From a virus: a stretch of DNA of 21,426 bases. Made by a program: the position numbers and the translations under genes. Below the pieces are notes generated by a model that was not told the origin of the DNA, did no database searches, and saw nothing but the letters and a program-made list of their open reading frames with translations. This document shows, piece after piece, positions 1-21,426 of this stretch (within the stretch, counting starts at the first letter, position 1; each line of letters begins with the position of its first letter). The DNA is taken from positions 1-21,426 of IMG/VR virus record IMGVR_UViG_3300009593_000146. One strand, given 5' to 3'.

Positions 1-2957
1 CCCCCAATAGGTGTTCCTGCTTGCACATATATATCCGCATGCGATGCGTATGCAGCACCGTCGTACCCCTGGAAGGACATTTGTCCGAGAAAGTCATTTG
101 GCTGGACTGCTGCGGGGTTCGCGAAGTCGCCGCGGGATTTTTTAAAGTCAATATTTGGAGCGTCACCGCCGTCATTATTTTGTTGTATGGCGAGCACAGT
201 TCCCCCGCTGGTATCGCTAGTTATGTGAGTTTTCGCTTGGGGATCTCCTGTACCTATTCCTACTCGGTTCGTGGAGCCTTTCACGAACAACGCGTGGGGA
301 TTTGTATCGCCTTCGACACGGAAGTCAACCAAAGACTCGGAACCCTCGTTGACAACAACTTCCGGCACGGCGCCATTAAGCCTGAAGCCTTCTCTGGTTG
401 TTCCATTGTCATTAACTTTAAATACGATATGTTTGTTGATTGTGTCGTTTTGAATTAAAATATTGTCCGATGAATTCATCCCAATCCGGCCTAGGCTTGC
501 GCCGCCACTTGAACTAAAGTGAATAGTGGGTTCAACAGTTTTAATTGCCAGAGTACCGGCGGGGTTTAAATTAATATCTCCATCAACTGTAAATGTAAGA
601 TGAGCAGCTGCAGCATTGTCGTCAACTGTTGTGATTGTGGTTGCGCCAGCGGTGGTGGTTTGAATCTGGAAGTAATCGCCACTATCGGCTGAACTTTCAA
701 TTCTAAGATCAACGTTATTGGGTCCATCCTCAACGTCAAGCTGGATTCCGTAGTTGAAGTCACCGCCGGCTGCTTCGATCCTTGCACCTTGGACCAAGCT
801 GCTGCCTTTTGTTCCGCCTTGGGCACTAATGTGGGCGCCGTATACAAAGCTGCCGCCGGCATCAGCAGCGTGTATAAGAGTTGGAGTGACGTGTAAGCCA
901 TACATATAGTTATTACCATTGGTGGCTGTGGTATTATCCATGTCAAGTTGGATACCATACATGTTGTTGTCTGATGTGGAAGCGCCGGTTTTATCAAAAT
1001 CTATATTTAAGCCGACTATTGAAGCCTCAGTGGTATCTGAGTAATTCTTGTCTATTTTTACTCCTGTTTTACCTCCGTCTGACTGAATTGCGAGCGCTTG
1101 GGCGTTAATTGCAGCAGCATTATTCTGAATGATGAGAGCACTGTTTCTTGTCCCTGTGTTTGCTGAATTATCGTCAACATAGAGGGCATTACCGGTGGTT
1201 AAACCATCTGCGCCAATGGCAAGCACCCTTGCGGTTGTTACATCATTTGCTGTTACATTGACTACGTTTGCGTCAATGTTGCCGGCATTAATATCAAGAC
1301 ATTGTTGGTCGGTGTCGTTGTTGTTTAGCTGTAAAAGAGGCACTCCGGTCGCGCCGGCAGAAGCATGATTTTTAATTTCTAATGTGGCGCCGGGGGATCC
1401 TGTGTTGTCGCCGATACTCATTCTATTAGAAGAGCCTTCGACAAAAAGCATATGGGATTCGTCGGCAGTTTCAATTCTAAAGTCAACATCAACGCCCCCT
1501 TCGTTAAATGTTACTTCGTTTTGAGTATCTTCGGTGAGATCTAGAAAATTGACCCCGCCGGCTTGGAAGTTTATATCGTCAGCTGTAAAGTTGATAAACG
1601 TATCTGTATCGCCTATATGAAAGATCTTGTCGGAGACACCTAAGTCTGTTCCATCAAATGTCAGGTTGGACTCGACGTCTGCTGTGGATGCATTGGCATA
1701 GGTTACAAGTCCGTTCGCAGTGGATCCGTTAAAAGAAATTCCGCCGCCACCGGGGAGATTGGTTAGCTGGCTTCCATCACCATAAAAATACGAAGCTGAG
1801 ACTGATAAGGAACAACTTAATGGCACTGAGGCTGTCATGGCGCCGCGGCCACCATCTAAACGCAACATAGTGGTTTGTGCAGCGGCTACTTTCGCGCCCA
1901 GTATTACATCAGCATTGGAAGTGGTGTTGCCAAGAACCATGTCGCTGGTGGCCCCTATCACTTGGAGATATCCTTTGGAGGCGCCGGCTATTCCTAAGCG
2001 GAAATAAGCGTTATTAACGCCATCAGCAAAAACACTCGCGTCATTACCCTTAGCATGGATCTCGTATGCAGGAGCGTTAGTATTGACACCCACTGAATTT
2101 GATACTACCGCACCAAAACTTGAGGTAAGCTTTTTGGTATAGACGGTGCCCGAGCCAGATACATCTCCTATAACAGCAAGCTTACTTCCATCAAACGTGA
2201 GGGCTGCTAACCCATTCACTGTCCCACCTGTAGCGGTGCCGGCGATGATGCGATGATTAGCTTGGTTAGTGTATGCTGTAATTGGGCTAAATGTAAGATT
2301 GCTTTGCAAATAAGTTGCGAGAGTGCCGACAGTCATGCTGCGGAGCGCTGGTGCTGCTGGGCTTGCGCCGGCGACGTCTTGCACAAAGAGTTTGTCGCCA
2401 GTTGCCAATGACTGGCCGCCATTAGAAATATCGTAGGTCTGGCCGGCATCTAACATCAGGGCGGTTGTATTAAGGTTTAAGCCGCCGTATGTGTCGAGGT
2501 TCGGCTTAACTCCGGTGGCCGTCACGGTGATGCCTGCACCGCCAGAAACAACAAGAGTACCTGAATCACTTTTTACGCCATTGCCGAGCACCAGATTAGA
2601 CGCACTAATGAAGCCCTGGAATTTATCTGTGCGAATATTCGTAAGGCCGGCCGCAGATCCTGAATAAAGTGTAGCGCTTAAAAGCCCGCTACCTGCGGCA
2701 AATGTAAAATTAGTATTTCCAGCGACACCTGAAGCTCCATCAAAATATGTTACCCGAGTGGCGGCGGCGTTTGTGACGCTACTAATAACAGGCGGTGCCA
2801 AGTTTGTGCCATTAAGTGTAATTGCGCTTGCAGTTATTCTTTGAGTAAACGTTTTCTTACCTGCAATAGTTTGATTACTAGTCTGGTCTACGGTATTCTC
2901 CAGCGACCCATTGTCGCCTGTGAACTCAACGTTTCCTTTTAATATGTTATAAGCCAT
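1..2957 (-). CDS. Long tail-fibre-like protein, 3' end beyond the window
   Basis: An open frame runs from an ATG at 2957-2955 to the window edge without a stop: 985 codons, C-terminus missing. A good ribosome site (GGGAGAG, about 8 bases upstream) sets the start. The protein is rich in Gly, Asn, Thr, Ala and Asp, with almost no Cys. Features in order: N-terminus MAYNILKGNV; a LYSGSAAGLTNI element near 97-108; SASYFYGDGSQLTNL at 387-401 followed by GGGG; a repeat unit at 485-526 copied at 870-910 (VDFRxE, LFVxGSxNR, IG); YG[I/L/A][Q/H] repeats at 666-741; and RVGIGTGDP at 898-906. The GIGTxxP element and the GYDGAAY stretch near 964 are typical of phage fibre regions that precede an S74-type intramolecular chaperone, which could lie beyond position 1. 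Inferred role: trimeric receptor-binding or long tail fibre. It follows a terminator, so it is probably a separate transcription unit. Confidence 0.8.
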   Translation of the reverse strand, partial: MAYNILKGNVEFTGDNGSLENTVDQTSNQTIAGKKTFTQRITASAITLNGTNLAPPVISSVTNAAATRVTYFDGASGVAGNTNFTFAAGSGLLSATLYSGSAAGLTNIRTDKFQGFISASNLVLGNGVKSDSGTLVVSGGAGITVTATGVKPNLDTYGGLNLNTTALMLDAGQTYDISNGGQSLATGDKLFVQDVAGASPAAPALRSMTVGTLATYLQSNLTFSPITAYTNQANHRIIAGTATGGTVNGLAALTFDGSKLAVIGDVSGSGTVYTKKLTSSFGAVVSNSVGVNTNAPAYEIHAKGNDASVFADGVNNAYFRLGIAGASKGYLQVIGATSDMVLGNTTSNADVILGAKVAAAQTTMLRLDGGRGAMTASVPLSCSLSVSASYFYGDGSQLTNLPGGGGISFNGSTANGLVTYANASTADVESNLTFDGTDLGVSDKIFHIGDTDTFINFTADDINFQAGGVNFLDLTEDTQNEVTFNEGGVDVDFRIETADESHMLFVEGSSNRMSIGDNTGSPGATLEIKNHASAGATGVPLLQLNNNDTDQQCLDINAGNIDANVVNVTANDVTTARVLAIGADGLTTGNALYVDDNSANTGTRNSALIIQNNAAAINAQALAIQSDGGKTGVKIDKNYSDTTEASIVGLNIDFDKTGASTSDNNMYGIQLDMDNTTATNGNNYMYGLHVTPTLIHAADAGGSFVYGAHISAQGGTKGSSLVQGARIEAAGGDFNYGIQLDVEDGPNNVDLRIESSADSGDYFQIQTTTAGATTITTVDDNAAAAHLTFTVDGDINLNPAGTLAIKTVEPTIHFSSSGGASLGRIGMNSSDNILIQNDTINKHIVFKVNDNGTTREGFRLNGAVPEVVVNEGSESLVDFRVEGDTNPHALFVKGSTNRVGIGTGDPQAKTHITSDTSGGTVLAIQQNNDGGDAPNIDFKKSRGDFANPAAVQPNDFLGQMSFQGYDGAAYASHADIYVQAGTPIG

Positions 2958-2976
2958 TAATGTGTCTCTCCCTTAG

Positions 2977-2990
2977 ATCTATAAATAGAT
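2977..2990. promoter_or_regulatory. AT-rich dyad before the long fibre gene
   Basis: The sequence ATCTATAAATAGAT is a 6-bp inverted repeat around a 2-base centre. It lies 19 bases upstream of the fibre ATG and just downstream of a terminator. On the gene strand it reads CTATTTATAG; on the other strand it contains TATAAATA, the T4 late promoter consensus. It could be a promoter element or an operator. No clear -35 box was seen. The related string CTATTTATAATG occurs in the gap at 7010-7021. Confidence 0.35.
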
Positions 2991-3024
2991 AGTTATTTTA
3001 TTCCCTTCACTCTATAAGTAGTTT

Positions 3025-3060
3025 ATAAAAAAGAGGACGCCCCCCAAAAGGAGGGCGCCC
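3025..3060 (-). terminator. Intrinsic terminator after the 621-residue fibre gene
   Basis: On the minus strand an 11-bp stem (3050-3060 pairing with 3035-3045, mostly G-C with two G-U type pairs) closes a TTTT loop. It is followed by CTC and six T residues (3032-3027). The hairpin starts 39 bases after the stop of the 3100-4965 gene. Stem, loop and T tract form a complete rho-independent terminator and should separate that gene from the fibre gene that starts at 2957. Confidence 0.85.
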
Positions 3061-3099
3061 AATATAGAAGAATAATCTTCCGGACTGCAAAAGCAAATC

Positions 3100-4965
3100 C
3101 TAGAAGAGTACCCAAACGTTAGAACCAACGAACATGCATGAAATAGCACCACCATCAGATTCGATTTCGACCGACTCAGCACCATCGATGCGGTGATCAG
3201 CAGAACCCTTGTTGATGATGAGATCATTGCCACCAAGAGAACCTGGAGCTTTAGCGTGCACGATATCACCGATATCAGGGCTAGCAGGAAGCGTCCAAGT
3301 ACGATCAGCAGTGAAAGTTGTAGTACCGAAGTTCATACCTTCTGTAAGAGTTCCGTTCTCATTTGCGATTGCTTGGGCTGAACCACCTTGCGTAGAAAGC
3401 ACACCGTTAGTAGCGGTCAGACCACCACCAGCCATGGCTGTCACAAGGTCAGCAATGCTTTCTTTCTTAGAGTTGTTACTGTCGTCAGCGTCGATGATAG
3501 CGATGCTATCAGCAGCAACATTAACAGCAGCAGCAGTCAGTTCGTTAAGGTCAAGAGCCAGAACTGCGGAAGCCGCAGACAGACCAACACCAGCAAAGAG
3601 AGTAGCGAGGTCATCGACAGTCTCTTTCTTAGTGGCGGATGCATCGTCCGAATCGACGAATGCAAAGAAGTCGCCAGAAGCGACAACACCAGCACCAAGC
3701 TCTGATAACTCAAGCTCAAACGTACCAGCACTGGCACGAATACCAATACCAGCAGCTGCGGTTGCATAGTCAGCGTAAGAATCTTTCTTAACAGCGTTGC
3801 TATCATTGGCATCGATGAAAGTGAAAGAATCAGCAGCGACATCAACGACACCAGCAGTGGCTTCGTTTAAGTCAACACTGAGCACACCAGCACTGGCGGC
3901 AAGACCAGAACCAGCGATTGCAGCGGCGTAGTCAACGAAACTTTCCTTCTTCATGAGACCGTCGGAATCAAGGAAGTATAAGTCATCATTAGCAACAGCA
4001 GCTGCAGCTGCAGCAACACCAGCAAGTTTGACAGTGCCATGTGAGGTTACGTTGCCGACAACATCTAACGTGCTAGAAGCCGAAAGAGTTGTAGCTCTAA
4101 CAGAAGACTGGGCTGCAGCACCGATGGTAGCACCATCGATAGAACCACCGTTCAGATCTAAAGTAGTGAAGATACCACCGTCAGCAACAGTACGACCAGC
4201 GTTAGTCCAGTTACTTCCCATAGAGAAGCTAGCACCGTCAGCAGAAATGCTATCAAGAGCAATGTCACCAACGTTTGTGATGTTTGCATCGCCCATTGAG
4301 GCACCAGCGTGAGCAGTAAGTAAGCCGTATATACCAGCAGTACCGTTCACAGTAGCGTTATCCGCAATGTTCAAGTCACCAGAAGCAGACAAGCTTGTGG
4401 CATTAATCGCCTTTGCGGTCATTGTACCAGAGACGTTTAACGTACCTTTAATTTGTGTGTTGTAAAGATAGTTGTTTAGTCCAGCAGCACCAGAGAAAGA
4501 GGTACCTTTCACAGCAAGGAATGTACCAGCTGCCGCGGCTGCACCACCGATGACAGTGCCATCAACAGTACCGCCGTTGATGTCGACAGTGGTAAGGATA
4601 CCAGCGTCGGCTACAGTGCGGCCGGCGTTGGTCCAGTTACTTCCCATAGAGAAGCTGGAACCGTTGTCGGCTATAATGCTGTCAAGAGCAATAGAGCCAA
4701 CGTTTGTGACGTTTGCATCACCCATTGAAGCACCAAGCTTAAAGACTGCTGCTCCACTAACGTGTAATTCGTTTTTTAGTTCTGCGCGTCCAACGACGTT
4801 AAGAACAGAAGAACCTGACAACGAAACCGCTGTCACGTTACGGCTGGCGTCGGACAAAGTTTGTCCCGCCAGTTTAAGAAGACCTGCGCCTGTGATGTCT
4901 ACTGTGCCCTCTTGTTCGAGCGCACCTGACATTGTGCTAGGTCCAAATTGAAATTTATAAGCCAT
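3100..4965 (-). CDS. Repeat-rich fibre or appendage structural protein (621 aa)
   Basis: This is a low-complexity, Ala/Gly/Ser/Asp-rich protein without Trp-rich or enzymatic motifs. The start ATG has GGAGGG about 9 bases upstream. Residues 78-140 and 221-282 are near-identical copies of one unit (GASMGDAN, SFSMGSNWTNAGRTVAD). Residues about 324-526 hold four tandem units of about 52 residues built on D-x-x-x-F/I-x-D-x-D followed by KK(E/D)S and AGxGLxAxxGVLxxDLNE. The C-terminal 65 residues (TWTLPASPDIGDIVH through IDGAESVEIES to GSNVWVLF) match in pattern the ends of the two upstream fibre genes. Repetitive beta-rich shafts with a small C-terminal head are usual for phage fibres and decoration proteins, so a virion appendage is inferred. 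A strong terminator follows. The exact attachment site is unknown. Confidence 0.75.
   Translation of the reverse strand: MAYKFQFGPSTMSGALEQEGTVDITGAGLLKLAGQTLSDASRNVTAVSLSGSSVLNVVGRAELKNELHVSGAAVFKLGASMGDANVTNVGSIALDSIIADNGSSFSMGSNWTNAGRTVADAGILTTVDINGGTVDGTVIGGAAAAAGTFLAVKGTSFSGAAGLNNYLYNTQIKGTLNVSGTMTAKAINATSLSASGDLNIADNATVNGTAGIYGLLTAHAGASMGDANITNVGDIALDSISADGASFSMGSNWTNAGRTVADGGIFTTLDLNGGSIDGATIGAAAQSSVRATTLSASSTLDVVGNVTSHGTVKLAGVAAAAAAVANDDLYFLDSDGLMKKESFVDYAAAIAGSGLAASAGVLSVDLNEATAGVVDVAADSFTFIDANDSNAVKKDSYADYATAAAGIGIRASAGTFELELSELGAGVVASGDFFAFVDSDDASATKKETVDDLATLFAGVGLSAASAVLALDLNELTAAAVNVAADSIAIIDADDSNNSKKESIADLVTAMAGGGLTATNGVLSTQGGSAQAIANENGTLTEGMNFGTTTFTADRTWTLPASPDIGDIVHAKAPGSLGGNDLIINKGSADHRIDGAESVEIESDGGAISCMFVGSNVWVLF
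3388..3996 (-). repeat. Four tandem 52-residue coding repeats (unit B)
   Basis: Residues about 324-526 of the 621-residue fibre protein. The units begin at DDLYFLDSDGLMKKES, DSFTFIDANDSNAVKKDS, DFFAFVDSDDASATKKET and DSIAIIDADDSNNSKKES. Each is followed by a D(Y/L)A..., AG.GL and SVDLNE-type segment. The units are divergent in DNA, so this is an old coding repeat and not a recent expansion. Confidence 0.8.
4120..4305 (-). repeat. Second copy of 62-residue coding repeat (unit A)
   Basis: Encodes residues 221-282 of the 621-residue fibre protein. It shares GASMGDAN, GxIALDSI, SFSMGSNWTNAGRTVAD and NGGxxDGxxIG with the copy at 4546-4734, 429 bases away. The DNA is also very similar (for example gttagtccagttacttccca near 4201). 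Confidence 0.85.
4546..4734 (-). repeat. First copy of 63-residue coding repeat (unit A)
   Basis: Encodes residues 78-140 of the 621-residue fibre protein. It is paired with the copy at 4120-4305. It differs by one extra residue (IIADNGSSFS against ISADGASFS) and a few substitutions. It is an intragenic duplication. Confidence 0.85.
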
Positions 4966-5035
4966 GTTTAAAAACCCTCCATTTTATAGTTTTATAATGG
5001 TCATCTGTTTAGGAATACACCTATCCAGATTTGAT

Positions 5036-5053
5036 CCGTGGATCGCTCCACAG
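5036..5053 (-). other. Small hairpin with GCGA tetraloop in a 124-base gap
   Basis: On the minus strand CTGTGGA and TCCACGG form a 7-bp stem (one U-G pair) closed by GCGA, a GNRA-type loop. It sits in the gap 4966-5089 after the stop of the 5090-5815 gene. No T tract follows, so it is not a normal intrinsic terminator. It may be an RNA processing or mRNA-stability structure. The rest of the gap is AT-rich with two TATAAAA-like strings near 4983-4998. Confidence 0.4.
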
Positions 5054-5089
5054 GTCGCTTATAATTAGAAGGCTCACAGCTAAAAAATC

Positions 5090-5815
5090 TTAGCAGATAA
5101 AGTATTTATTAATACCGTTACAATAAAGCTGAACAGATGCATAAGGGGACTCCAAAACAATCGAATTTTTACCATCGATTGTTTCGGCTCCGGAGGCTAA
5201 AATTGTAATGTTGTTGCTATTAGCATTGCCTCCCTCATCCTTTACCACATACGTTTGGCCGTTCAACATTAGAGAAGCGCTTGGCAACCTGACATCCACA
5301 ACATTGTTAGTTGTATCTACTCCGATATAATAGCTCTTAGTAGATGCGGTTAGAGTTGCATTGGCCGTTGCTCGGCTTAGTTGTAGGCCTCCCGCCAATG
5401 CTAGCCGATCACCCTCAAAGCGCAACCCAAATGAACCTGTTAAGTTTCCACTAGCGTTCTTAAATTGAACCGAATAATTCGGGCCAGATGGGTTTACGTT
5501 GCTCACGCCCGTTAGTTGACTGCCATCCCCATAGAAAAACGATGCGGAAACGGGTGCGCTAGCACTCATTCCACCAACGATTCCAAGCGAAGAGCCGTCA
5601 AACGTCAGATTGGTTTCACAATTTAAAGCATTCGCATTGCCACCTACATTGGTTACAATACCATTATCAGTCGCGTTTTGTACGCGAGGGACATTAATAA
5701 TGCTCGCGCCGTCGGACGTGCTTAAGTTGCCCGAGAGGATGTTGGTCCCAGCATCAATGCCTGGTCCGAAATATGCCGGCGCAATTACTGTGCCCGTCAG
5801 TGAATTATGAGCCAT
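5090..5815 (-). CDS. Fibre or appendage protein with YGDGSQLT motif (241 aa)
   Basis: The start ATG has a very strong ribosome site (AGGAGG, 9 bases upstream). The N-terminus MAHNSLTGTVIAP resembles that of the long fibre gene (MAYNILKGNVEF). NLTFDGSSLGIVGG (69-82) is followed by SASFFYGDGSQLTGV (90-104), an element shared with residues 387-401 of the long fibre protein. The C-terminus (about 172-241: VDVRLP, GQTYVVKDEGG, ETIDGKNSIVLESP, NGINKYFIC) follows the same pattern as the ends of the 239- and 621-residue neighbours. Its size, composition and position in the 1-6558 block support a virion fibre or fibre-adaptor role. No enzymatic motif was seen. Confidence 0.7.
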   Translation of the reverse strand: MAHNSLTGTVIAPAYFGPGIDAGTNILSGNLSTSDGASIINVPRVQNATDNGIVTNVGGNANALNCETNLTFDGSSLGIVGGMSASAPVSASFFYGDGSQLTGVSNVNPSGPNYSVQFKNASGNLTGSFGLRFEGDRLALAGGLQLSRATANATLTASTKSYYIGVDTTNNVVDVRLPSASLMLNGQTYVVKDEGGNANSNNITILASGAETIDGKNSIVLESPYASVQLYCNGINKYFIC

Positions 5816-5838
5816 TTACCAGTTCCTCCTAAAACTAA

Positions 5839-6558
5839 TTAGAAGACAAACCAGTTGCTTCCATCCGAATACAAGTTAATTGCCGGCATTGTACCAGTTA
5901 ATTGGTAATAGTTTCCACCTTCAACTAATCCACTTACTGTACTCTTTGAAAGAATGAGAGAACTTGTGCGTGCCGTTACCTGATCTTTCACTACCATGAT
6001 GTGACCAGCTTTGGCGCCTTGAGATCTCGGATCGTCTAATGTGATAACTGTGTTGGCGGTTGCAGTTACGCCATAAATATATGCTCTCTTCGTAAGATTA
6101 GCGCCACCATTGAGTGTGACCGTACCCGTCACAGCAAAATAATTACCACGAATTGATTTTAGATAAGTCATGTGGTTGGTGGCCGAAGAACTTAGAACAG
6201 GTGTGACTGATGTCCACACTGCTCCAACTGCGCTTGACACAACATTTAAACTACCGGTGCGGAGATGTATGTCATCGGCACTATTACCAAAAATGGTTGA
6301 ACCAGAGATGACCTCAGTGTCAATAATTTTATAAGAACTCGCGGTGATGGCGCCACTAACAATAAGGGCCCCAGTCAATACCAGCGTGCTTGTAGTTCCA
6401 CCGGGAGTACCACCGCGAGACGCAGTGAAGTACATAAGATTACGCGAACCTGTCATGTTCGATCCGCTTGTATGAAACTGTATGGAACCAGTAGGACCCG
6501 TGGCTGATGCGCCACCGGTGCTAGCAGTACAGTTTATATATGCCCATCCGGTAGCCAT
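5839..6558 (-). CDS. Fibre or appendage protein with GPTG segment (239 aa)
   Basis: The start ATG shares its A with the TAA of the preceding gene (TAATG at 6556-6560). The N-terminus MATGWAYINCTASTGG leads into GASATGPTGSIQFHTSGSN, a short collagen-like and Gly/Ser-rich stretch. The middle contains SSYKIIDTEVISGSTIFG (about 74-91) and DDIHLRTGSL, elements of a type that recurs in marine T4-like structural proteins. The C-terminus (AGHIMVVKDQ about 181-190 to INLYSDGSNWFVF) is the head-like module shared with its two downstream neighbours. It is inferred to be a virion appendage protein. Receptor specificity cannot be read from the sequence. Confidence 0.7.
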   Translation of the reverse strand: MATGWAYINCTASTGGASATGPTGSIQFHTSGSNMTGSRNLMYFTASRGGTPGGTTSTLVLTGALIVSGAITASSYKIIDTEVISGSTIFGNSADDIHLRTGSLNVVSSAVGAVWTSVTPVLSSSATNHMTYLKSIRGNYFAVTGTVTLNGGANLTKRAYIYGVTATANTVITLDDPRSQGAKAGHIMVVKDQVTARTSSLILSKSTVSGLVEGGNYYQLTGTMPAINLYSDGSNWFVF

Positions 6559-7695: not shown

Positions 7696-9437
7696 TTTAT
7701 TCCTGCAAGCGACTTCCATCGCCCGATAGTGTTAGATTCATTAAGTTTGTTTTCTGCGACTTTACCTTGATCCACCGAAGCTCCGCGATTGGGTTTGGAA
7801 GCTGGCTGTTTCTTCGTGGGTAAGTCTACCACTTCTGCGCCTTGGTCACTCACCATTTTGGTGCGCACCTTGCGCATAAGATCATTTAGTAGTGGTTTTG
7901 ATTGAGATTTCATAAATATTCTAGACATCCTCTTGACCTTCTCAGCTTTCTTGGGATCTTCTCTACTTAATTTCTTAAATTGTTGTAGAATTTTGTCTTT
8001 GTTTTTAATTAGATAATTGCTATTCGCTATTTTTTCTACTGGGTTGTTAGAAGTCTTCTTTTCACTTAAAACATTCTCAGGTAAATATGGGCCAATAAAG
8101 TTTACAAAAGCGTCTAAGTCTGATTGGAAATTGATATTTGGGCCGGCCTTTCTTTTATTGACGCTGTTCCAACTACCTTTGATCTTGTTGGTATTAAAAT
8201 CATCTGCTAAGTAAAATACTTTTCTCTCTTGAGGTTCGGCTCCGGGACTATCGTCTTCATCTGGAATTTCCTCAACATCTACTGGAGTAGCACCGTCTTG
8301 ACCTGGTTTCTTCGGAGTGCGATCCTCGGGAGTGTCCCAATCGTGGGGTTCATCCCATGGTTTAGGTTTTTCTTCGGGTGGGGCAGGTTGACCAATATTC
8401 CAGCCACTTGTTTTCAGTTGTAACTTACAGCAATCATAAATCGACTGGGCTATCTCTTGATCCTTAAAAATCTGGAAAATGCCACTCAGGTCGACCGAGC
8501 GACTTTTCGCCGGCTTGGAATTAGAGCCTTTTACTGGTCGAACTTGACGGCGAGGAGTTTTGGTAGAGGCAACTTGGCCGACTACTTCTTTAATTTCTTT
8601 CGCATCCAACTCACTAAAGAACCCAGCGGCGACACTTTGTTTGACAATGTAATCACGTAGTTCTACATATTTCTTAGGGTTTAGCTGGTATTCTTTTTTG
8701 ACATTAAGCAAATACATCTGAAGAGCCATCAATGGGCTCGCAGGATTTTTGTTAACTTTAAATTTCTTGCAGCTACCCAATACGGCTTCTGGCGCTTCCT
8801 TCTCTGGTGTCGGCGCAGGCTCTGGGGCCTTACCAAACCAGTCGGGTATCTGATCGCCGTCTTTGCCAAAAAAGCCGCCGCGTGCTAAAATCTTATGTAA
8901 ATGCGCTTTGGTCTTTGCGTTGGTCAATGCACCATTAAAAAGTTTAGTCAGATTAGGATATTTGGATAAATCGCCAAGAGTGGGCATGCGGCTTAAGATA
9001 ACCGATGCTTTGTGAATAGCTTGCTCTTCAATCGTATAATTATTCCCTTGGGGATCTGTGAGTAGATCCTGTAGCTCTTGGGATAGGGCTGCTCGATCTA
9101 TCTCAAGACCAAGAAGACGATTTATATCATCAAACGCCTTGTTGAGGGCTACTACATCATCAGCGTTATATGTTTCGGGTCCAAGTTGCTCGCCACTTCC
9201 GTCGCCAGTGCTACACGGTTGGCCCCTCTTGCAGACTAAATCTTTAGTATATTGATTTTTGTCATAACTGAGGCCATGTTTGCCGCCCGTTTTACCTCGC
9301 AAGAAGTTCTTCAAGCCGCCAGTGAACTCATCGAGCGGGATCTCTACAGCTTCTTCAGAAGCAGCGCTTTCATTGAGAAAGTCTCTCCATGCGTCACTTT
9401 GTTTTTTAGCGTCTTTAAAACTACTCCAGTCACTCAT
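7692..9437 (-). CDS. Large protein after the protease, possible head core or scaffold (581 aa)
   Basis: The start ATG overlaps the end of the protease gene by 8 bases. Residues 1-25 (SDAWRDFLNE-SAASEE) carry an L-N-E site. The middle has helical segments (about 80-190), a Pro/Glu linker (PEPAPTPEKEAPEA), a Lys-rich helical part, and then a long acidic, Pro-rich stretch (about 360-405, with PWDEPHDWDTPED). The C-terminal part is Lys-rich and helical (DKILQQFKKLSREDPKKAEK). The protein ends in NKLNE-SNTIGRWKSLAGIK, with a second L-N-E site near the end. In T4 the protease gene is followed by the scaffold gene 22, which has similar charge and coiled-coil character. The position therefore suggests a prohead core protein, but no homology to gp22 was seen and the length is larger. 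Confidence 0.65.
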   Translation of the reverse strand: MSDWSSFKDAKKQSDAWRDFLNESAASEEAVEIPLDEFTGGLKNFLRGKTGGKHGLSYDKNQYTKDLVCKRGQPCSTGDGSGEQLGPETYNADDVVALNKAFDDINRLLGLEIDRAALSQELQDLLTDPQGNNYTIEEQAIHKASVILSRMPTLGDLSKYPNLTKLFNGALTNAKTKAHLHKILARGGFFGKDGDQIPDWFGKAPEPAPTPEKEAPEAVLGSCKKFKVNKNPASPLMALQMYLLNVKKEYQLNPKKYVELRDYIVKQSVAAGFFSELDAKEIKEVVGQVASTKTPRRQVRPVKGSNSKPAKSRSVDLSGIFQIFKDQEIAQSIYDCCKLQLKTSGWNIGQPAPPEEKPKPWDEPHDWDTPEDRTPKKPGQDGATPVDVEEIPDEDDSPGAEPQERKVFYLADDFNTNKIKGSWNSVNKRKAGPNINFQSDLDAFVNFIGPYLPENVLSEKKTSNNPVEKIANSNYLIKNKDKILQQFKKLSREDPKKAEKVKRMSRIFMKSQSKPLLNDLMRKVRTKMVSDQGAEVVDLPTKKQPASKPNRGASVDQGKVAENKLNESNTIGRWKSLAGIK

Positions 9438-10035
9438 CTTCGAGAACCTCGTTTAAAAGTCTATTAATTCGATCAGCTTTGGTGAATACCTTGTTAGTAA
9501 AATCTTTTGCCTCTTTCATCATGAAGGCGCCAGGAGTTGATGGCTCAGAAACAAAATCAAAGCAAATCAATTGGAAGTCGTCTTCGACAACCGTGTTTCC
9601 TTGGGCCTCGGTTACGGAACCCATACCGCGGGATGAAATACCGATGCTGACGCCCGACTGTACAAGCGTTTTAAGAACCTGCCCAGAAGGAGTATCAAGC
9701 ACTTTAGCTTTACCCATAACATTCTTGCCGTCCCACCAAACTTTTGTCATCATATGAGATGCATTTTTAAGGTTGATTACTGAATCTTCTGGATGATCTA
9801 GTTCTCCCAAGGCGCGACGTTCGGTCACAAGCTTGTCATAGTTTTTCATCTCGCGCATTAAGACGTTATAAGGATAAACACGGCCATTGCCATTAACTGT
9901 ATCTGCACGTTGGATTATTCCAGTTAAGTACATGCCTCCAGCCGTAACAAAAGCTTTTTCTTCTTCTGTGAGCAGGTCTTGACAAACGCCGCCATCGCAA
10001 AGTTCGTAATATTCTCTCAGTAATTTCTGACCCAT
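9430..10035 (-). CDS. Prohead maturation protease (T4 gp21-like)
   Basis: This 201-residue serine protease belongs to the herpesvirus-assemblin-like prohead protease superfamily. Motifs in order: NGNGRVYP at 48-55; GELDHPE with His81 at 77-83; GISSRG with Ser134/Ser135 at 132-137; and FDFVSEPSTPGA at 159-170. These are the core signatures of T4-like gp21 proteases (His and Ser of the catalytic site, and the conserved SEPS strand). Such enzymes assemble inside the prohead, cut core and capsid proteins at [L/I]-x-E sites and then degrade themselves. Its own C-terminus ends in LLNEVLEDE, with a candidate L-N-E site. Many proteins in this window carry such sites near their N-termini. The start has AAGGGA about 9 bases upstream. 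The length is close to that of T4 gp21 (212 aa). Confidence 0.9.
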   Translation of the reverse strand: MGQKLLREYYELCDGGVCQDLLTEEEKAFVTAGGMYLTGIIQRADTVNGNGRVYPYNVLMREMKNYDKLVTERRALGELDHPEDSVINLKNASHMMTKVWWDGKNVMGKAKVLDTPSGQVLKTLVQSGVSIGISSRGMGSVTEAQGNTVVEDDFQLICFDFVSEPSTPGAFMMKEAKDFTNKVFTKADRINRLLNEVLEDE

Positions 10036-11494: not shown

Positions 11495-12311
11495 CGGTAT
11501 GGAACTCCTGTACTAATTTTTGAGTTTTGAGTACTGTAAGAAGTACACTCTCAGTAATGTCTGTTTGTTTAAACGAGTCTAATTTTTCAAGAACTCGGGT
11601 AGCATTCTGTAATAGGATCGGATCATCTTCGAAGAGGGCCGCGGACATCGCAGCTTTCACTTCTTTCTTTAAGCGCAAAATCTCTTCGTTAAGATACATT
11701 TTCAAAGACAAAGAATTATCGGTAAATGAAGATATGTATTTGCTTAGAAGTTCCTTTTGTTCCGACATTAAATCTTGCTTGTACTTCTCATTAAACTTAC
11801 TAACGAACGTATTGAGTACTAAGTTATCTATCGTTGGCTCCTGGTTCTGTTCAGCAACCGATGTAAGCATATTCGTGGTAACTTCATTTTCTAATATAAC
11901 ACGACTTTTAGGATCTGTTTTTATATTAAAAATTTGGTCAATCGAGGCCAGTGTTTTATAGTTAGGAACAAAGTTGTTGAATATATCTGATTCAATTTCT
12001 TTATTAATATCATGTATCATCGCTGTTTGCGCAGTAAAAAGTTGTTGTGGATCTATCATCATCTTTTGTATCTTTGCTTCTCTAAGGATCTTCTGTGAAT
12101 CTTTTTCCGTTAAGTCTTGGTTTTCATAAAGAGACTTATAGCACTCTAGATCGTATTTTAAAACGCTATCGGCACCGAAGTGCTCTCTAATTATATTAAT
12201 AACTTTTTGTTTGCGTTCTAAGTCTCCTTTCATAATAGAGATTGTTGCTTCTTTTATCAAAGCCTCATAAACAAATGCTGTATTGCGTTTTTTATTATGC
12301 TTTGTTTTCAT
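11478..12311 (-). CDS. Helical conserved protein next to the portal (277 aa)
   Basis: The ATG is 17 bases inside the portal gene's end, with GGAG about 7 bases upstream. The N-terminus MKTKHNKKRNTAFVYEALIK is basic, then nearly the whole protein is predicted helical and charged (ERKQKVINIIREHF, QKILREAKIQKMM, EEILRLKKEVKAAM). Residues 200-265 look like a coiled coil. It is coupled to the portal, as would fit a portal-associated assembly factor or prohead core component. I know of no catalytic signature in it. It could equally be a tail-completion protein. Confidence 0.65.
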   Translation of the reverse strand: MKTKHNKKRNTAFVYEALIKEATISIMKGDLERKQKVINIIREHFGADSVLKYDLECYKSLYENQDLTEKDSQKILREAKIQKMMIDPQQLFTAQTAMIHDINKEIESDIFNNFVPNYKTLASIDQIFNIKTDPKSRVILENEVTTNMLTSVAEQNQEPTIDNLVLNTFVSKFNEKYKQDLMSEQKELLSKYISSFTDNSLSLKMYLNEEILRLKKEVKAAMSAALFEDDPILLQNATRVLEKLDSFKQTDITESVLLTVLKTQKLVQEFHTDGPNN

Positions 12312-14298
12312 CTTTTTGCTCCGTTAATAGTTTTTTACTTTCCAATCCCTCAATCAAGTTTCGGACTGACTCGTTAATTTGAAATAAACTTTCTTCTTCT
12401 GATTGCTCTCTCAGACTATAAATAGATTGCTCTTGTTCATAAATCCCATTGCCAACAGTTGGTATGGCATTTATCTCAGCGCCTGGATATACATTTCGTG
12501 TAGTAGATGAAGCTTTTTCTTTTGAATATTTAGCTGCGTTTGAACGTTGTCGGGCGCCGGCTTTCCTTTTATCCACCTTTACTGGATTGTATACTTTGCC
12601 TTTAGCGCCGGGTGTTAGACGAGGCTCCTGTCTGCTGCCCGGAGGTACCGCCAATAAAGGAGATTCTTCCCCGCCGGCGTCGGCGTCTGCGGGCGCGTCT
12701 GCGGAGCCTGCTGGCATTTCATCTGGACCGCCAAGATCAAGATCGTCACCTAAGTCTCCCCCTCCAAGATCGCCGCCGAGATCTCCACCGCCGAGGTCCC
12801 CGCCGAGGCCGCCCTCAGCTTGGGCGCCCCCTTCGGCTACTGCCTGTAGGGACGCATCGTGGGTGCGATCATAATACATTTCGCGCTGGTTGCGTTGGAA
12901 TTCTTCATGGCTCATACCAAAAATGTTATCGGCCACCCAACGACGAGAGAAGAACCCTTCTGTGGCTGAAGCTGCGACATCAAACTTGGATTTCCAATGC
13001 TCAATTTCCTGAAGTTCTGCAATTTGGGAAGGATTATTCAGAGCCAGCTTGAAGGATAACAGATCATCTCCGCGGAAACCAAGAGTATATAAGTGGATGA
13101 TAGCAATTTTTTCTAACTCCGCGATAATAACTCTCTGTAATCTTTGTACGGTTCGTGAGAACCGAATGTCTTTTTGGGCTAAGGTTGTCTTATCTTCAGC
13201 TGCGCCTTCTCCCATCGCAAGATATGCTTGGGGAATTTTTAACGCGGAAAAAAGTTTATCGCGGAGATATTTGATATCATCTATTTGAGTAATGTTTTGG
13301 GCGCCGGCAAGAGTTTGTATCTCGGTTGCAGAACCAGCGCGAACAGGAATAAAATAATCTTCTTCAATGGACATTGGGTTATAGCGTAAGTCAACGCGTC
13401 CAGTGCTTGGATCTACCACTGAGTGTCTCTTAAGCTGAGTTACAATTTTTTGCATATACTGTTCAACCTCTTGCGGAGGAACAGCCCCCACATCAATCTT
13501 AAACACGCGGCGCTCAGACGAACGAACAACACGATAAGCCATCATTGCGTCTTCCATCAAAGTTAGTTGGCGCCAGATGCGGCGGGCAGGTTCCAGAATA
13601 GATGTTCCGTATGGGGCATATTTATCGTTTCCTAAAATTCTAAAATGTGCAATTTGCCAATTCTCAAATGTCATTCCTGCTGAGTTCCATTGGTACTGAA
13701 CATAGTTGGGGTTCGTAGAGTCTTGACCCTCTAACCTTTCAATCTCAGCAGTAGGGATAGCTATCACCCCCTTAACACCGTATTTGTCGTCAATGTCTAG
13801 ATACAAAAAGAAGTCTCCATACTTGCACATGGTGCGGCTCCAGCCATACAGGTTGTACTGAAGGCTAAGTATATTATCGAACAAGACCGCTAAAACTGCA
13901 CGTATCTCTTCGTTGGGACATTTGATGCTCAGCATTGGCCGGAGATCCGAATATGTCGTCATTTCGTCGGCATAGATATCCAGTGATGATGCAATCTCTG
14001 GTGTGTATTCCATTTGATCAAAATCAACATATCGTTCAGAGCGGCGCTGGTTTGCTATCGCATTGGTCGCTAGATTATCTAATGGGTTGTGTAAACTCTT
14101 TTTAAACTGTTGTCCGGACGCAGTCTTAAAACGTGAAGAATATTTATCCAGATGTTGACGTCGGATGCGACGGCCGGATTGTGACCGATAGTTTACTATG
14201 GGGCCTGAGAATAATCTAGTTAAAGCTTGGAAGAGCTTAGATTCTTGATTAGCAGGGTTTCTGTTGTTTGCTGTTAGTCTTCTGTCAGGGGGTGCCAT
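12295..14298 (-). CDS. Portal protein (T4 gp20-like)
   Basis: This 667-residue protein lies 8 bases after the terminase. The N-terminal arm is basic (SGRRIRRQHLDKY, 41-53). The stem-and-wing core contains DQMEYTPEIASSLDIYADEM (94-113), LRPMLSIKCPNE (119-130), YGDFFLYLDID (160-170), the APYGTSILEPARRIWRQL segment (228-245), the KYLRDKLFSALKIPQAYL segment (343-360) and the DKTTLAQKDIRFSRTVQRLQ helix (369-388). These are typical of T4-like portals, which form the dodecameric DNA entry ring, nucleate the prohead and dock the terminase. The family is usually about 520-560 residues. The extra length is a Gly/Asp-rich stretch (490-545) and a long tail ending in charged Glu/Gln-rich helices (INESVRNLIE), which has I-N-E and L-I-E sites. 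Confidence 0.9.
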   Translation of the reverse strand: MAPPDRRLTANNRNPANQESKLFQALTRLFSGPIVNYRSQSGRRIRRQHLDKYSSRFKTASGQQFKKSLHNPLDNLATNAIANQRRSERYVDFDQMEYTPEIASSLDIYADEMTTYSDLRPMLSIKCPNEEIRAVLAVLFDNILSLQYNLYGWSRTMCKYGDFFLYLDIDDKYGVKGVIAIPTAEIERLEGQDSTNPNYVQYQWNSAGMTFENWQIAHFRILGNDKYAPYGTSILEPARRIWRQLTLMEDAMMAYRVVRSSERRVFKIDVGAVPPQEVEQYMQKIVTQLKRHSVVDPSTGRVDLRYNPMSIEEDYFIPVRAGSATEIQTLAGAQNITQIDDIKYLRDKLFSALKIPQAYLAMGEGAAEDKTTLAQKDIRFSRTVQRLQRVIIAELEKIAIIHLYTLGFRGDDLLSFKLALNNPSQIAELQEIEHWKSKFDVAASATEGFFSRRWVADNIFGMSHEEFQRNQREMYYDRTHDASLQAVAEGGAQAEGGLGGDLGGGDLGGDLGGGDLGDDLDLGGPDEMPAGSADAPADADAGGEESPLLAVPPGSRQEPRLTPGAKGKVYNPVKVDKRKAGARQRSNAAKYSKEKASSTTRNVYPGAEINAIPTVGNGIYEQEQSIYSLREQSEEESLFQINESVRNLIEGLESKKLLTEQKDENKA
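12664..12831 (-). repeat. Gly/Asp/Ala-rich low-complexity stretch in the portal
   Basis: Encodes portal residues about 490-545. It has tandem (L)GG(G)DLGG-type units, then PADADAGGEE. The DNA has tandem gatctccaccgcc-like units, which favour slippage. It separates the conserved portal core from a basic and acidic C-terminal tail and is probably a flexible acidic linker. Confidence 0.85.
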
Positions 14299-14306
14299 TT
14301 ATTTTC

Positions 14307-15890
14307 TCACTTAATGATCCAGCTAAACTGGTCGTATGTATTTTTTGCTTCATTTATTTTATCAAATATATTATCTTTTTTGTAGCCTTGCTGGCCTTTT
14401 ATTTGAGTATTCATAGTTGTCTTAGAAGATACAATAGCAGATAGGAACGCTTTTGAATAGTTTAAATCTCGTGCACTTGTCTGCAATGCTGTGTCCCTCA
14501 CCCAACAAGCGATTGCAAGTGCCATGATGAGATCATCATGGTATCCTTTCATCGCTTGCGGTTTTCCATTCTTCCAAATAAAAGTTTTCATCTCGTTAAT
14601 TGTACGAGAAGAATATATGGTAATTAGTTTGTTTCTGATAAACTCCTCTAATTTCGCTATAATCAAGGGGCGCGTTTTCATGGAAGTTGTGAAGCCGGCT
14701 ATACTAGAATTCATTGCTTCTGCTTGATGTTGTTCTATATACTCATGTGTAGACTTGATAGAGTAGTACAAATTTGGATAGGCATGTTCAACAAGCTTGT
14801 CGAGAACTGTGTAACCGATATTGTTGTTCTCTACCACAAGCATAGCATCTCCAAATTCTCTCCCTACTTGATTCAGGAAGTTTGCATACATATCGGGCGT
14901 TGGCTTCCCTTGATATTCGCCCACGATTTCGAGAGTTTCTATCTTGATCATATGTAATGTTGAAAAATCGGCGCCGTCGCCGCGGGAAACATCTGCAACA
15001 GCAAGATAGTTGCAGCTTGGGTCGTATTCTTCCCAAATCCAAAAATTTCTGTCAAAAGCTGTTCGGTATTTTGGTTCCCTAACGTTTTCTAATAACCACT
15101 TCATACAATCTGGATCAATGACAGTCTCTCCAGAAGTATTGAAATTGCACTCAAGCTCTTGTGCAATTTGGCGCTTTGACATATTCTTGGTCTCTTTCTT
15201 ATACCATTCATTATCTCTGTCTGGGTGGACATCCCACGGCAGTGTAGTCAAGTTAAAGTTATTTGTATTGCTTTCGGCATCCGTGCATGTCTTGTGGAAC
15301 CAATTACCAACACCGTTGGGTGTAGACAGCGCTATGCATCGACCACCAGTAGACAGAGTGGGATATAGGCCGGTCCACAGATCTCCGAGACCCTCAATGT
15401 GAGCGGCCTCATCGAGTACTAAAAGGGAAAGTGCTTCTGAACGACCTGCATCACCAGAGGTGGAGGCTGCTTTAATAGACGAACCGTTAGAAAGCTCAAA
15501 TGAAGTTCGGTTGTCTACTGTGATAGTAGCAATACTTAACCAATCAGGCACATTTCTCATGATACCTTTAACTTTCTTTACAAGGTTACCGGCTGTAGCG
15601 AACTTCGTTGCCATTACAAGAATTGCTTTGTCACGATGGAATAACATAAGCCAGACAATATATCCAGCTGTGATTGTTGATATTCCTAACTGTCTGGCTT
15701 TTAAAATAACGTTAAAACGATAATCATTAAAATCACGTAAAAGGTCGTCTTGGAAATCATATGTGTCAAAAAGAATTAACCCATGCATAGGATGGGAAAT
15801 TCTGGCGTAGGTTTTTAAAAAGTAGGCAGGATCTTTGCCACATTTTAGTATTTCTTTAACTTGCTGTTTTTTGTCTAACTGAAAAGCCAT
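14307..15890 (-). CDS. terL: Terminase large subunit
   Basis: This 527-residue DNA-packaging motor has an N-terminal ATPase domain and a C-terminal RNase H-like nuclease. The Walker A region is KARQLGISTI (64-73): the usual Lys of GK[T/S] is Ile, and a Lys/Arg pair lies just before, as in other deviant phage terminases. Walker B is LLVLDE (156-161), with Glu161 as the likely catalytic base. The coupling motif is LSTPNG (188-193). Nuclease acids are Asp300 (AVADVSRGDG), Glu354 (LVVENNNIGY) and Asp452/453 (GYHDDLIMALA). It packages DNA through the portal encoded just downstream and cuts concatemers. The ATG overlaps the TAA of the preceding gene (TAATG). No small-subunit gene was identified, although the neighbour at 15890-16450 is a candidate by position only. 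Confidence 0.95.
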   Translation of the reverse strand: MAFQLDKKQQVKEILKCGKDPAYFLKTYARISHPMHGLILFDTYDFQDDLLRDFNDYRFNVILKARQLGISTITAGYIVWLMLFHRDKAILVMATKFATAGNLVKKVKGIMRNVPDWLSIATITVDNRTSFELSNGSSIKAASTSGDAGRSEALSLLVLDEAAHIEGLGDLWTGLYPTLSTGGRCIALSTPNGVGNWFHKTCTDAESNTNNFNLTTLPWDVHPDRDNEWYKKETKNMSKRQIAQELECNFNTSGETVIDPDCMKWLLENVREPKYRTAFDRNFWIWEEYDPSCNYLAVADVSRGDGADFSTLHMIKIETLEIVGEYQGKPTPDMYANFLNQVGREFGDAMLVVENNNIGYTVLDKLVEHAYPNLYYSIKSTHEYIEQHQAEAMNSSIAGFTTSMKTRPLIIAKLEEFIRNKLITIYSSRTINEMKTFIWKNGKPQAMKGYHDDLIMALAIACWVRDTALQTSARDLNYSKAFLSAIVSSKTTMNTQIKGQQGYKKDNIFDKINEAKNTYDQFSWIIK

Positions 15891-19665: not shown

Positions 19666-20045
19666 TATCTTTTGAATTTCGTTTTGCCGGGGTACTCTGA
19701 TGACGGGCCGTATGGATCATTGTCGAGTGGGTTATGTTCAATATCTCCATATGCTTCAGCACGCTCTAAAGTATCCATGCATCGGGCATCGTCGAATTCT
19801 TTTTGAAGCTCAGCATAATCAGCTTGTGCTATCTCTGCCTCTTCCGGAGTTTGTTTGGCATGTGTGGGATACCTGTCAGAGCCGGCGCCACCTCCGCGAT
19901 CAGTCATCTTGCCTCTTGTGTTTGGGCCTCTATCCAATGCTTGCATCAGTGCCAGACATTTTTTGATTACTGGTGTTGGTATCTGCATCTTCTCGTCTAA
20001 AAAGTAACGAGGATCAATAAATTTCTTGTTTTTTCTAAATGCCAT
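19665..20045 (-). CDS. Small hydrophilic phage protein (126 aa)
   Basis: The ATG overlaps the TAA of the preceding gene (TAATG) and the stop touches the 24-bp repeat. The N-terminus MAFRKNKKFIDPRYFLDE-K is basic and ends in L-D-E, a possible prohead protease site and a style of N-terminus I associate with marine T4-like phages. The centre is Gly/Arg/Asp-rich (GKMTDRGGGAGSDRYPTHAK) and likely disordered. A helix follows (PEEAEIAQADYAELQKEFDD), and the tail is polar and Pro-rich. There is no known domain. It belongs to the two-gene block flanked by the direct repeat. Confidence 0.65.
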   Translation of the reverse strand: MAFRKNKKFIDPRYFLDEKMQIPTPVIKKCLALMQALDRGPNTRGKMTDRGGGAGSDRYPTHAKQTPEEAEIAQADYAELQKEFDDARCMDTLERAEAYGDIEHNPLDNDPYGPSSEYPGKTKFKR

Positions 20046-20647
20046 TATGTTGTACTCCTATATACTTGATTAAATAGTTGCATAATATCTTCATTGCCCC
20101 GGTATGCTAAATTTAAAGCAACCTTTAGTTGATCTAAGTCTTTCCGCTTCTCATCGGCAGGCAATTGAGTATAATCAACAAACAAGCTTGGGTTACTATC
20201 TTTTTGCCATGAATTGTGTTTCATCCATATTTCATGGAATTCAGAAGATAGATTTTCAATGTCATCAACTGAAGGGGATTCTGGTAGGTTTTCAACTGCA
20301 ACCGCATAGTCTACTGATGGCGCTCCATTTAACTTATGGGCAAGTGATGGCACAATTTTATCGGCCTCTTGGTTAATATTCTGATGTGCAACTCCATCAA
20401 CAACCTCAACACCTTCGAAGCCTTGTAGTTTTTCTATCGGAGGATTATCGGGAATAGGCTTAAATCTTGGCTTATCACCATTCTCTTTTCTGTAACCTGC
20501 AAGCCATTTAGCGTGCATATTGTTGGTTAACTGCTGAGCAAGTTCCTTCACACCCATAGACATTTTCAATCCACTAGTTAGACGAGGATCTGGTTCATAT
20601 GCTGCTTCGTTCAAATGCTTTCGCCAATTTTCAAATAGTTGCTTCAC
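20045..20647 (-). CDS. Tagged protein with RyR-like segment (200 aa)
   Basis: The start is the GTG at 20647, which overlaps the TGA of the tubulin-like gene (GTGA). The longer in-frame ATG at 20731 would need an 88-base overlap and lacks the tag. The N-terminus MKQLFENWRKHLNE-AAYE carries an L-N-E site. Residues about 137-185 (SSEFHEIWMKHNSWQKD, then FVDYTQLPADEKRKDLDQ) fit the RyR-type pattern H-x-x-W followed by a 'vPy-x-L-x-x-x-EK-x-x-D' element. A weaker copy may lie at 30-60 (ELAQQLTNNMHAKWLAGYRK). RyR-type domains occur in many phage proteins of unknown role. The middle is Pro/Asp-rich. A virion or host-interaction role is inferred. Confidence 0.65.
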   Translation of the reverse strand: MKQLFENWRKHLNEAAYEPDPRLTSGLKMSMGVKELAQQLTNNMHAKWLAGYRKENGDKPRFKPIPDNPPIEKLQGFEGVEVVDGVAHQNINQEADKIVPSLAHKLNGAPSVDYAVAVENLPESPSVDDIENLSSEFHEIWMKHNSWQKDSNPSLFVDYTQLPADEKRKDLDQLKVALNLAYRGNEDIMQLFNQVYRSTT

Positions 20648-21426
20648 GTTGCTAATCCATTCATGCTTAGTATCGCAATCAGACCGGGCACATTCTTTCT
20701 GACATAAACGCCAGAGAAAAGTGTCTCGCATCGACCGCCGACATAAGCGATTGCCGACTCAATATTCTTGCTGACTTTAGGGTCAGCCACCATCTCTTCC
20801 GAGACGACTAAAACCAATGAACCAGCCGCTGCCTTACCCTTCGGTGGGGGGCACGCTGACCTGTTCATACAGTTGTGAAGGATCACCGATCCAAGCTTTG
20901 CAGTATTTGGGTCCTTTATCATAGTCGAGCCCATAAAAGCGCGACCGTCATTACCCAAACATGTTTCCAAATCTTTGCTATCAAAAGATTGGATCGGTGA
21001 ATCCTCAGTGGAGAGTTTTAACACTTGGGCTAATGACTTAGCAAATTGTGTGTTGGCGACAGGGTACATACCAAGCATACCTATTCTGCCGCGCAGTAAT
21101 CGTGTAGCACGCTCGTTGTCAAGAACAATATGCGGATGTTCCGCAACATCATTAACGAGCGTTAGAGCATTTCTTGCAATGGTGGGATTAAGAACTTCTT
21201 GCGCGGTTGGCCACGATACTATGTAAACGACCTTGCCACTCGACTGCACAGAGCGCATGTAACGCTCAAAGACAGGGTGCAAAGCGGTAACACTACTACC
21301 GGTACCGCCACCGCCGCCAGCAAGGACGAATAACCAATCAACTTTACCGAGCTTGATACGCAGGGCATCTTCAACAATCGCACCATTTTGACTTAAAACC
21401 TCTTTTCCATATTCTACGTTTTTTCC
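20644..21426 (-). CDS. FtsZ/tubulin-family GTPase homologue, 5' end missing
   Basis: 260 residues remain; the N-terminus lies beyond the window. Residues 36-45 read AGGGGGTGSS, the Gly-rich phosphate loop of tubulin/FtsZ proteins (family pattern GGGTG[ST]G), though the final Gly is Ser. Later elements match FtsZ in order: VVYIVSWPT (strand after the loop), HIVLDN, then a T7-loop-like stretch around 148-152 (FDSKD) that keeps the two Asp residues of the NxDxxD loop, followed by GRAFMGST, like the FtsZ GKAMMG. The C-terminal domain ends in LFSGVYVRKNVPGLIAILSM, like the last strands of FtsZ. Phage tubulins (PhuZ, TubZ) form filaments that position or move phage DNA. It could instead be an inhibitor of host FtsZ. 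It heads the operon in this window and is translationally coupled to the next gene by GTGA. Confidence 0.8.
   Translation of the reverse strand, partial: GKNVEYGKEVLSQNGAIVEDALRIKLGKVDWLFVLAGGGGGTGSSVTALHPVFERYMRSVQSSGKVVYIVSWPTAQEVLNPTIARNALTLVNDVAEHPHIVLDNERATRLLRGRIGMLGMYPVANTQFAKSLAQVLKLSTEDSPIQSFDSKDLETCLGNDGRAFMGSTMIKDPNTAKLGSVILHNCMNRSACPPPKGKAAAGSLVLVVSEEMVADPKVSKNIESAIAYVGGRCETLFSGVYVRKNVPGLIAILSMNGLAT
20648..20671 (-). repeat. 24-bp perfect direct repeat, copy 2 (inside tubulin-like 3' end)
   Basis: Identical to 19642-19665, 1006 bases apart. Here it encodes the final residues L-S-M-N-G-L-A-T of the tubulin-like protein and directly precedes the GTG start at 20647. The base just after the repeat differs (G here, A in copy 1), which makes GTG here and ATG there. 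Confidence 0.95.

Follow-up and report, generated by a model that had tools for sequence, protein, structure and literature searches.

A tubulin/FtsZ-superfamily gene conserved in T4-like phages of ~195-203 kb

What use might a T4-like phage have for a tubulin of its own? The question is raised by IMG/VR record IMGVR_UViG_3300009593_000146, a viral sequence of 21,426 bases that was analysed in its entirety (the window) and whose final open frame (20644-21426, minus strand) encodes a protein of the tubulin/FtsZ superfamily. The frame continues past the end of the record, with ~120 N-terminal residues (5′ codons) lying beyond it. The parts of the gene within the window are as follows.

20644..21426, minus strand: tubulin/FtsZ-family gene, 3′ 260 codons and stop (open frame, PF00091 and full-length relatives)
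21292..21318, minus strand: T4 glycine loop GGGGGTGSS, predicted to bind the phosphates of guanosine triphosphate (GTP); GGGTGS invariant in 47/47 family sequences
20980..20982, minus strand: first T7-loop Asp, in QSFDSKDLE; equals D269 of the full-length relative L005 and D210 of S. aureus FtsZ; invariant in 47/47 (role, PMC8936486)
20971..20973, minus strand: second T7-loop Asp, in QSFDSKDLE; equals D272 of full-length L005 and D213 of S. aureus FtsZ; invariant in 47/47 (role, PMC8936486)
20929..20946, minus strand: GRAFMG, where the activation domain begins, following the T7 loop and H8; compare GxAxMG of FtsZ
20647..20679, minus strand: C-terminal end IAILSMNGLAT; 0-5 residues follow the last conserved segment

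Despite its truncation, the 260-residue fragment matches Pfam Tubulin PF00091 (E = 2.4e-4); it also matches the NCBI TIGR00065 ftsZ model (E = 8.6e-9) and, among PDB chains, CetZ 3zid (E = 3.3e-6), with FtsZ chains weaker. The full-length relative L005 lies above the curated PF00091 cut-off (E = 2.3e-8; 35 bits against 33). A preliminary description, made from the letters of this DNA, had proposed an FtsZ/tubulin-like phage gene at 20644-21426, with GGGGGTGSS, D-x-x-D and GxAxMG in the order known for the superfamily. The PF00091, TIGR00065 and CetZ matches confirm the gene, as do all 47 aligned family members; the three elements are seen at 21292-21318, 20971-20982 and 20929-20946; and the profile searches named there as a check do return tubulin/FtsZ matches. 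Searched by tblastn against phages, the fragment had no match and the full-length protein matched phage G alone; a tblastn search of plasmids found no relative.

Conservation and architecture of the family

The missing 5′ part, the recovery of which had been suggested in the preliminary description, was supplied by IMG/VR relatives: full-length L005 (380 aa) provides the absent ~120 residues. Stepwise searches from ever more distant members widened the collection to 300 locus frames with the gene, 276 of them full length, with 145 distinct C-terminal sequences (some contigs enter locus counts more than once, as separate loci). These fall into 46 clusters at 90% identity, the most distant being ~49% identical to L005. 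PF00091 was matched by all 47 rows of the family alignment, A6, which includes the window (best E 1.1e-10). A search of the open-access literature, with subscription papers and preprints outside its range, found no description of this tubulin family.

Conservation is strict at the nucleotide-binding and catalytic positions. GGGTGS, K69 and the T7-loop residues D216 and D219 (trimmed L005 numbering) are invariant in 47/47 rows, and N43 and D65-G66 (same numbering) in all 46 sequences covering them; the T7 Asp pair, pointed out earlier in the window gene, is therefore a family-wide invariant and not a chance of one sequence. The two departures from the signatures noted at that time, Ser for the last Gly and Ser for the Asn of NxDxxD, both hold. 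Across the family, GGGTGS is followed by Ser or Ala, where the signature GGGTG[S/T]G has Gly, and the Asn of NxDxxD is replaced by Ser, Thr or Ala. The ratio of nonsynonymous to synonymous substitution rates (dN/dS) is 0.028 between the window gene and L005, the closest relative compared; in the comparisons made with more distant members, synonymous sites are saturated. The gene is under strong purifying selection.

In S. aureus FtsZ, the two T7 aspartates hold the catalytic water, and either D210N or D213N abolishes assembly (PMC8936486); strict conservation of both residues thus points to an assembling GTPase. Key residues for association or hydrolysis in that protein also include, by the same work, D46, Q48, R143 and N208 (PMC8936486). 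In the alignments and family columns, Thr stands here for D46, Lys for Q48, a non-basic residue for R143, and Ser, Thr or Ala for N208. The family thus keeps the hydrolytic Asp pair but not the FtsZ-specific contacts.

A phylogenetic tree separates this family (95/99), FtsZ (100/100), PhuZ (100/100) and a phage G pair (99/98) into four clades on long stems, so that their order and depth are unsure; the TubZ genes of c-st phage and virulence plasmids were left out. Judged from these sequences, the family is a large, previously uncharacterised one within the tubulin/FtsZ superfamily and a clade apart.

L005 consists of an acidic tail (residues 1-65), a GTPase domain, H7 and an activation domain. 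An AlphaFold2 model of the folded part, built from 47 diverse sequences, reached a predicted local distance difference test score (pLDDT) of 95.2 and a predicted template-modelling score of 0.93. The predicted fold contains a Rossmann-type GTPase domain, the central H7 and an activation domain, so that both the GTPase and the C-terminal domain named in the preliminary description as a structural check are present. Foldseek against the PDB gave a probability of 1.00 to CetZ, FtsZ and TubZ, the best match being CetZ 3zid (E 3e-20, template-modelling (TM) score 0.72); the TM-score was 0.80 for B. cereus TubZ, the highest among 50 listed, and 0.75 for S. aureus FtsZ. Among viral predicted structures, an uncultured Caudovirales phage contributed the best match, a protein named 'FtsZ' (TM 0.83), ahead of one named 'cell division protein' from an unclassified myovirus (TM 0.75); Noxifer PhuZ stood at 0.57.

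The two chain ends set the family apart. In 141 of the 145 sequences measured, the chain runs 0-5 residues beyond its last conserved segment, and the model has no helix beyond the last strand; on both counts, the H11 helix and a C-terminal tail are absent. The N-terminal tail has a median of 66 residues and a median net charge of about -16; in L005 (residues 1-65) it was of very low predicted confidence in a model built from 21 close sequences (pLDDT 57 for the model). A recurrent DDFDFVxxYG or EDFGMVEDFG motif (loose pattern) was found in this tail in 136/145 sequences. The typical member is thus predicted to be a protein of ~380 aa with a disordered acidic N-terminal tail and next to no C-terminal tail. 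The N-terminal tail may bind a partner; there is a precedent for N-terminal attachment in archaeal OdinFtsZ1, though via an amphipathic helix (PMC12583498).

Phage group and genomic neighbourhood

The T4-type head-gene neighbourhood described earlier proved real, with synteny in relatives. Three genes of the window define it, the terminase serving as synteny anchor.

14307..15890, minus strand: terminase large subunit, T4 type
12295..14298, minus strand: portal protein, T4 gp20 type
9430..10035, minus strand: prohead protease

In all 78 loci with 7 kb or more of room, the terminase is preceded on the same strand by the tubulin, at a distance of 3.5-7.4 kb in relatives. Where neighbours were seen (182 loci), a gp46/47-like nuclease gene in turn precedes the tubulin, ~2.4 kb upstream of it and again on the same strand. 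It is single copy in 29/29 large IMG/VR contigs (up to 203 kb). Moreover, in an independent set of loci, selected through the terminase instead of the tubulin, the gene was present in 21 of 25 with at least 4.5 kb upstream. The four loci lacking it have just 4.6-5.6 kb upstream, against the known distance of 3.5-7.4 kb; where the upstream sequence reaches 7.4 kb or more, the gene is present in all 11 loci, although five of the 11 are near-identical contigs. The tubulin is a core gene of a group of ~195-203 kb T4-like phages, found in every well-covered genome. One contig, G004 (195,459 bases), begins and ends with the same 128 bases, as expected of a complete, circularly permuted genome.

The nucleus shell protein chimallin (phrog_4795) was found in none of 13 large contigs, with a positive phiKZ control, and a multi-subunit RNA polymerase (PF00623) in none of four contigs of 195-203 kb, for which cellular control genomes were positive and the controls did not include phage. 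Among the contigs tested, the group shows no sign of a phage nucleus.

Among isolates, Flavobacterium phage immuto has the nearest terminase (47.6% identity) and Microcystis phage Mel-JY01 the next (43.7%); a 484-kb uncultured phage comes after them (42.9%). No convincing tubulin was found in any of the three. The last of these (L190, LR756508) has a terminase and portal 37-43% identical to those of the group, so that one head module occurs in two very different genome sizes. Bacterial assemblies gave a single match, on one contig of a Flavobacteriaceae metagenome-assembled genome (MAG), at 98% identity with the phage gene. This MAG and the relationship to immuto hint at flavobacterial hosts; from the MAG, the relatives and general knowledge of the IMG datasets, the group is presumably marine.

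One further gene of the window follows the tubulin.

20045..20647, minus strand: gene after the tubulin, beginning at a GTG that overlaps the tubulin stop; carries FENWRKHLNE at the N-terminus and an RyR domain

The RyR domain scores 28.9 bits against a cut-off of 27.4 (PF02026), and a full-length relative of this neighbour was found in one other locus only. In L012 (10756-11257), 26 bases of the tubulin 3′ end recur as a direct repeat on either side of an extra gene that follows the tubulin; in L364 (820-930), the same position is empty and has one repeat copy, and in the window it is taken by a different gene, 20045-20647. These individual junctions identify the position just after the tubulin as a variable cargo slot.

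Short N-terminal peptides recur in the region. Protein starts of the type MKITKxxLxxxIKE occur in the window at 19641, 18981 and 16809, and of the type W(R/K)xxLNE at 20626 and 9389, all on the minus strand; G004 has both (MKITKxQLxxIIKEE and WRKxLNE). Proteins sharing either start are otherwise unrelated. T4-type prohead proteases follow an (I/L)xE cleavage rule, and WRKxLNE fits it, so these peptides may be capsid-targeting signals of packaged proteins.

Other observations concern the wider genome. Minus-strand genes at window positions 3-6558 encode long repetitive proteins, some with SASYFYGDGSQLT-type segments in common, that are likely tail fibre or appendage proteins. G004 carries a phage-encoded transfer-messenger RNA with the tag peptide ANNNNYFEQRLAA (L203:5525-5864), several transfer RNAs, and a run of ~20 genes (L199-L208, g42-g61) resembling sugar-nucleotide/glycosyltransferase genes by eye. 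The T4 late-promoter TATAAATA is not enriched in G004, with 12 on the coding strand against 11.5 expected. A ParB-like identity considered for the gene upstream of the tubulin in G004 was dropped, its first 260 residues being without a Pfam match.

Candidate functions of the phage tubulin

Based on these findings, we consider it probable that the protein forms a GTP-driven filament during lytic infection by these ~195-203 kb T4-like marine phages. In the proposed mechanism, the protein would bind GTP and assemble head to tail, the T7 loop of one subunit completing the GTPase site of the next. The resulting filament would be dynamic, and its most likely task in the lytic phase would be to position or move phage DNA or capsids. 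A partner would be held by the acidic N-terminal tail (DDFDFVxxYG-type), a task that falls to the C-terminal tail in FtsZ, TubZ and PhuZ. By analogy, PhuZ, which moves nuclei and capsids (PMC13282480; PMC7950403), may serve as a functional model for such a filament.

Three points weigh against this proposal. Since the equivalents of D46, Q48, R143 and N208 are replaced, assembly need not follow FtsZ. PhuZ polymerises using its C-terminal tail (PMC3678025), which this family lacks. Finally, no cargo or adaptor gene was identified, and the genes adjoining the tubulin vary.

The same evidence bears on other explanations. Phage-encoded inhibitors of FtsZ are known, and bacterial FtsZ is the best sequence profile match (S. 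aureus FtsZ, E 1.2e-10), as would be expected if the protein were directed at the host, co-polymerising with or titrating FtsZ or its partners so that division is blocked and the cell enlarges before lysis. We regard this as improbable: the residues of the FtsZ-FtsZ interface listed above are replaced, the C-terminal peptide of FtsZ is missing, the family forms a separate clade on a long stem, and its own catalytic pair, needless for a decoy, is under strong selection. Segregation of an episomal phage genome in pseudolysogeny, with the protein as a TubZ-like partition motor, would accord with the high TM-score to B. cereus TubZ and with the link between tubulins and pseudolysogeny in large phages (PMC7824862). 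It is nevertheless quite unlikely, because the gene is tightly packed (10-22 bp gaps upstream, overlap downstream), leaving no room for an iteron centromere (tubC); no TubR-like neighbour was recognised beside the gene, with no dedicated TubR search made elsewhere in the genome; no plasmid relative was found; and the conserved one-strand position between gp46/47-type and head genes fits a lytic programme.

That position just upstream of the head genes could also be read as the mark of a non-filament GTPase serving head assembly or DNA packaging, in keeping with the constant synteny with terminase, portal and protease and with the possible capsid-targeting N-termini of adjoining genes. Such a role is very unlikely, given that the invariant T7 pair works only across a subunit interface and that immuto and Mel-JY01, with the same head module, manage without a tubulin. 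E. coli FtsZ matches in the phage collection mostly look like contamination, but host or other contamination of this record is barely credible and is refuted by synteny: there are 276 full-length loci with a terminase-linked arrangement wherever room allows, G004 is a complete-looking 195-kb contig with an end repeat, and the sole match in bacterial assemblies is the one MAG contig, 98% identical to the phage gene. A lytic-phase filament remains our preferred explanation.

Comparison with known tubulin-superfamily proteins

In profile comparison, the family matched phage G gp138 (E 8e-12), FtsZ (E 1.8e-10) and PhuZ (E 6e-7, N-terminal part only), a ranking that is rough because the profiles differ in depth. 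Bacillus phage G gp138, annotated as a 'putative FtsZ-like cell division protein', uncharacterised and related to PHROG 17961, is the best isolate match (hmmsearch E 8.8e-16; hhalign E 8e-12) and the only related isolate protein found. It shares the Gly loop region, DNE and an FD-KDL T7 segment, but is ~24% identical (tblastn), belongs to its own clade and comes from a 498-kb Bacillus phage. A 66% relative of gp138 lies on a 175-kb IMG/VR contig (L265:4001-5116), so phage G is not alone in having such a tubulin.

PhuZ (phiKZ, 201phi2-1; Chimalliviridae) is likewise a phage tubulin-superfamily GTPase, with two invariant Asp residues spaced as in the T7 loop (D201, D204). The D198A mutant of PhuZ RAY formed polymers at every expression level tried (PMC10299810). 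The match of PhuZ to the family is weak, and the C-terminal H11 and acidic tail with which PhuZ polymerises (PMC3678025) have no counterpart here. With the separate clade and the lack of chimallin, these differences led us to reject a PhuZ orthologue. FtsZ shares the fold, the Gly loop and an NxDxxD-like T7 loop; this family has an N-terminal tail in place of the C-terminal linker and conserved terminal peptide. The TIGR00065 equivalog cut-off was not reached (35 bits, scored on the 260-residue fragment, against 295), and an FtsZ orthologue was rejected on this ground, the four replaced interface residues and the missing linker and peptide. The lack of a PhuZ/TubZ-like C-terminal helix and the replacement of the FtsZ residues together indicate an orthologue of neither PhuZ nor FtsZ.

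TubZ/RepX of Bacillus plasmids and Clostridium phage c-st resembles the family in fold; the family differs in having no C-terminal H11 or tail and no room for a centromere beside its gene, where no TubR was recognised. CetZ of Methanosaeta thermophila (3zid), the top Foldseek match (22% identity), also has GGTGSS, but CetZ is an archaeal cell-shape family (PMC12583498), not a viral one. The closest viral predicted structure, A0A6J5RW92 in BFVD ('FtsZ Cell division GTPase', 452 aa), is 16% identical and is known by its database name only.

The reading in the preliminary description, a gene for a probable polymerising GTPase of this superfamily, is supported and can be refined: the protein is not a PhuZ, has no TubZ-type tail or neighbourhood, and is encoded by the core gene of a phage group and not by an isolated oddity. 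Reviews class phage tubulin as PhuZ or TubZ (PMC7950403), and a recent survey finds it to be a distinguishing feature of Chimalliviridae, seen elsewhere in a handful of cases (PMC11835377). Tentatively, and with a little less than even confidence, we propose a third phage-tubulin lineage besides these two, one that would form filaments in nucleus-less phages, take its cargo via the N-terminal tail, at the opposite chain end to that used by FtsZ, TubZ and PhuZ, and serve as a core gene of a widespread marine group. Now that a conserved single-copy tubulin is on record from hundreds of loci, with no nucleus shell gene in any that were tested, the purpose of a viral tubulin that has no nucleus to centre becomes testable, as does the question of whether an N-terminal tail can stand in for the C-terminal tail of FtsZ, TubZ and PhuZ.
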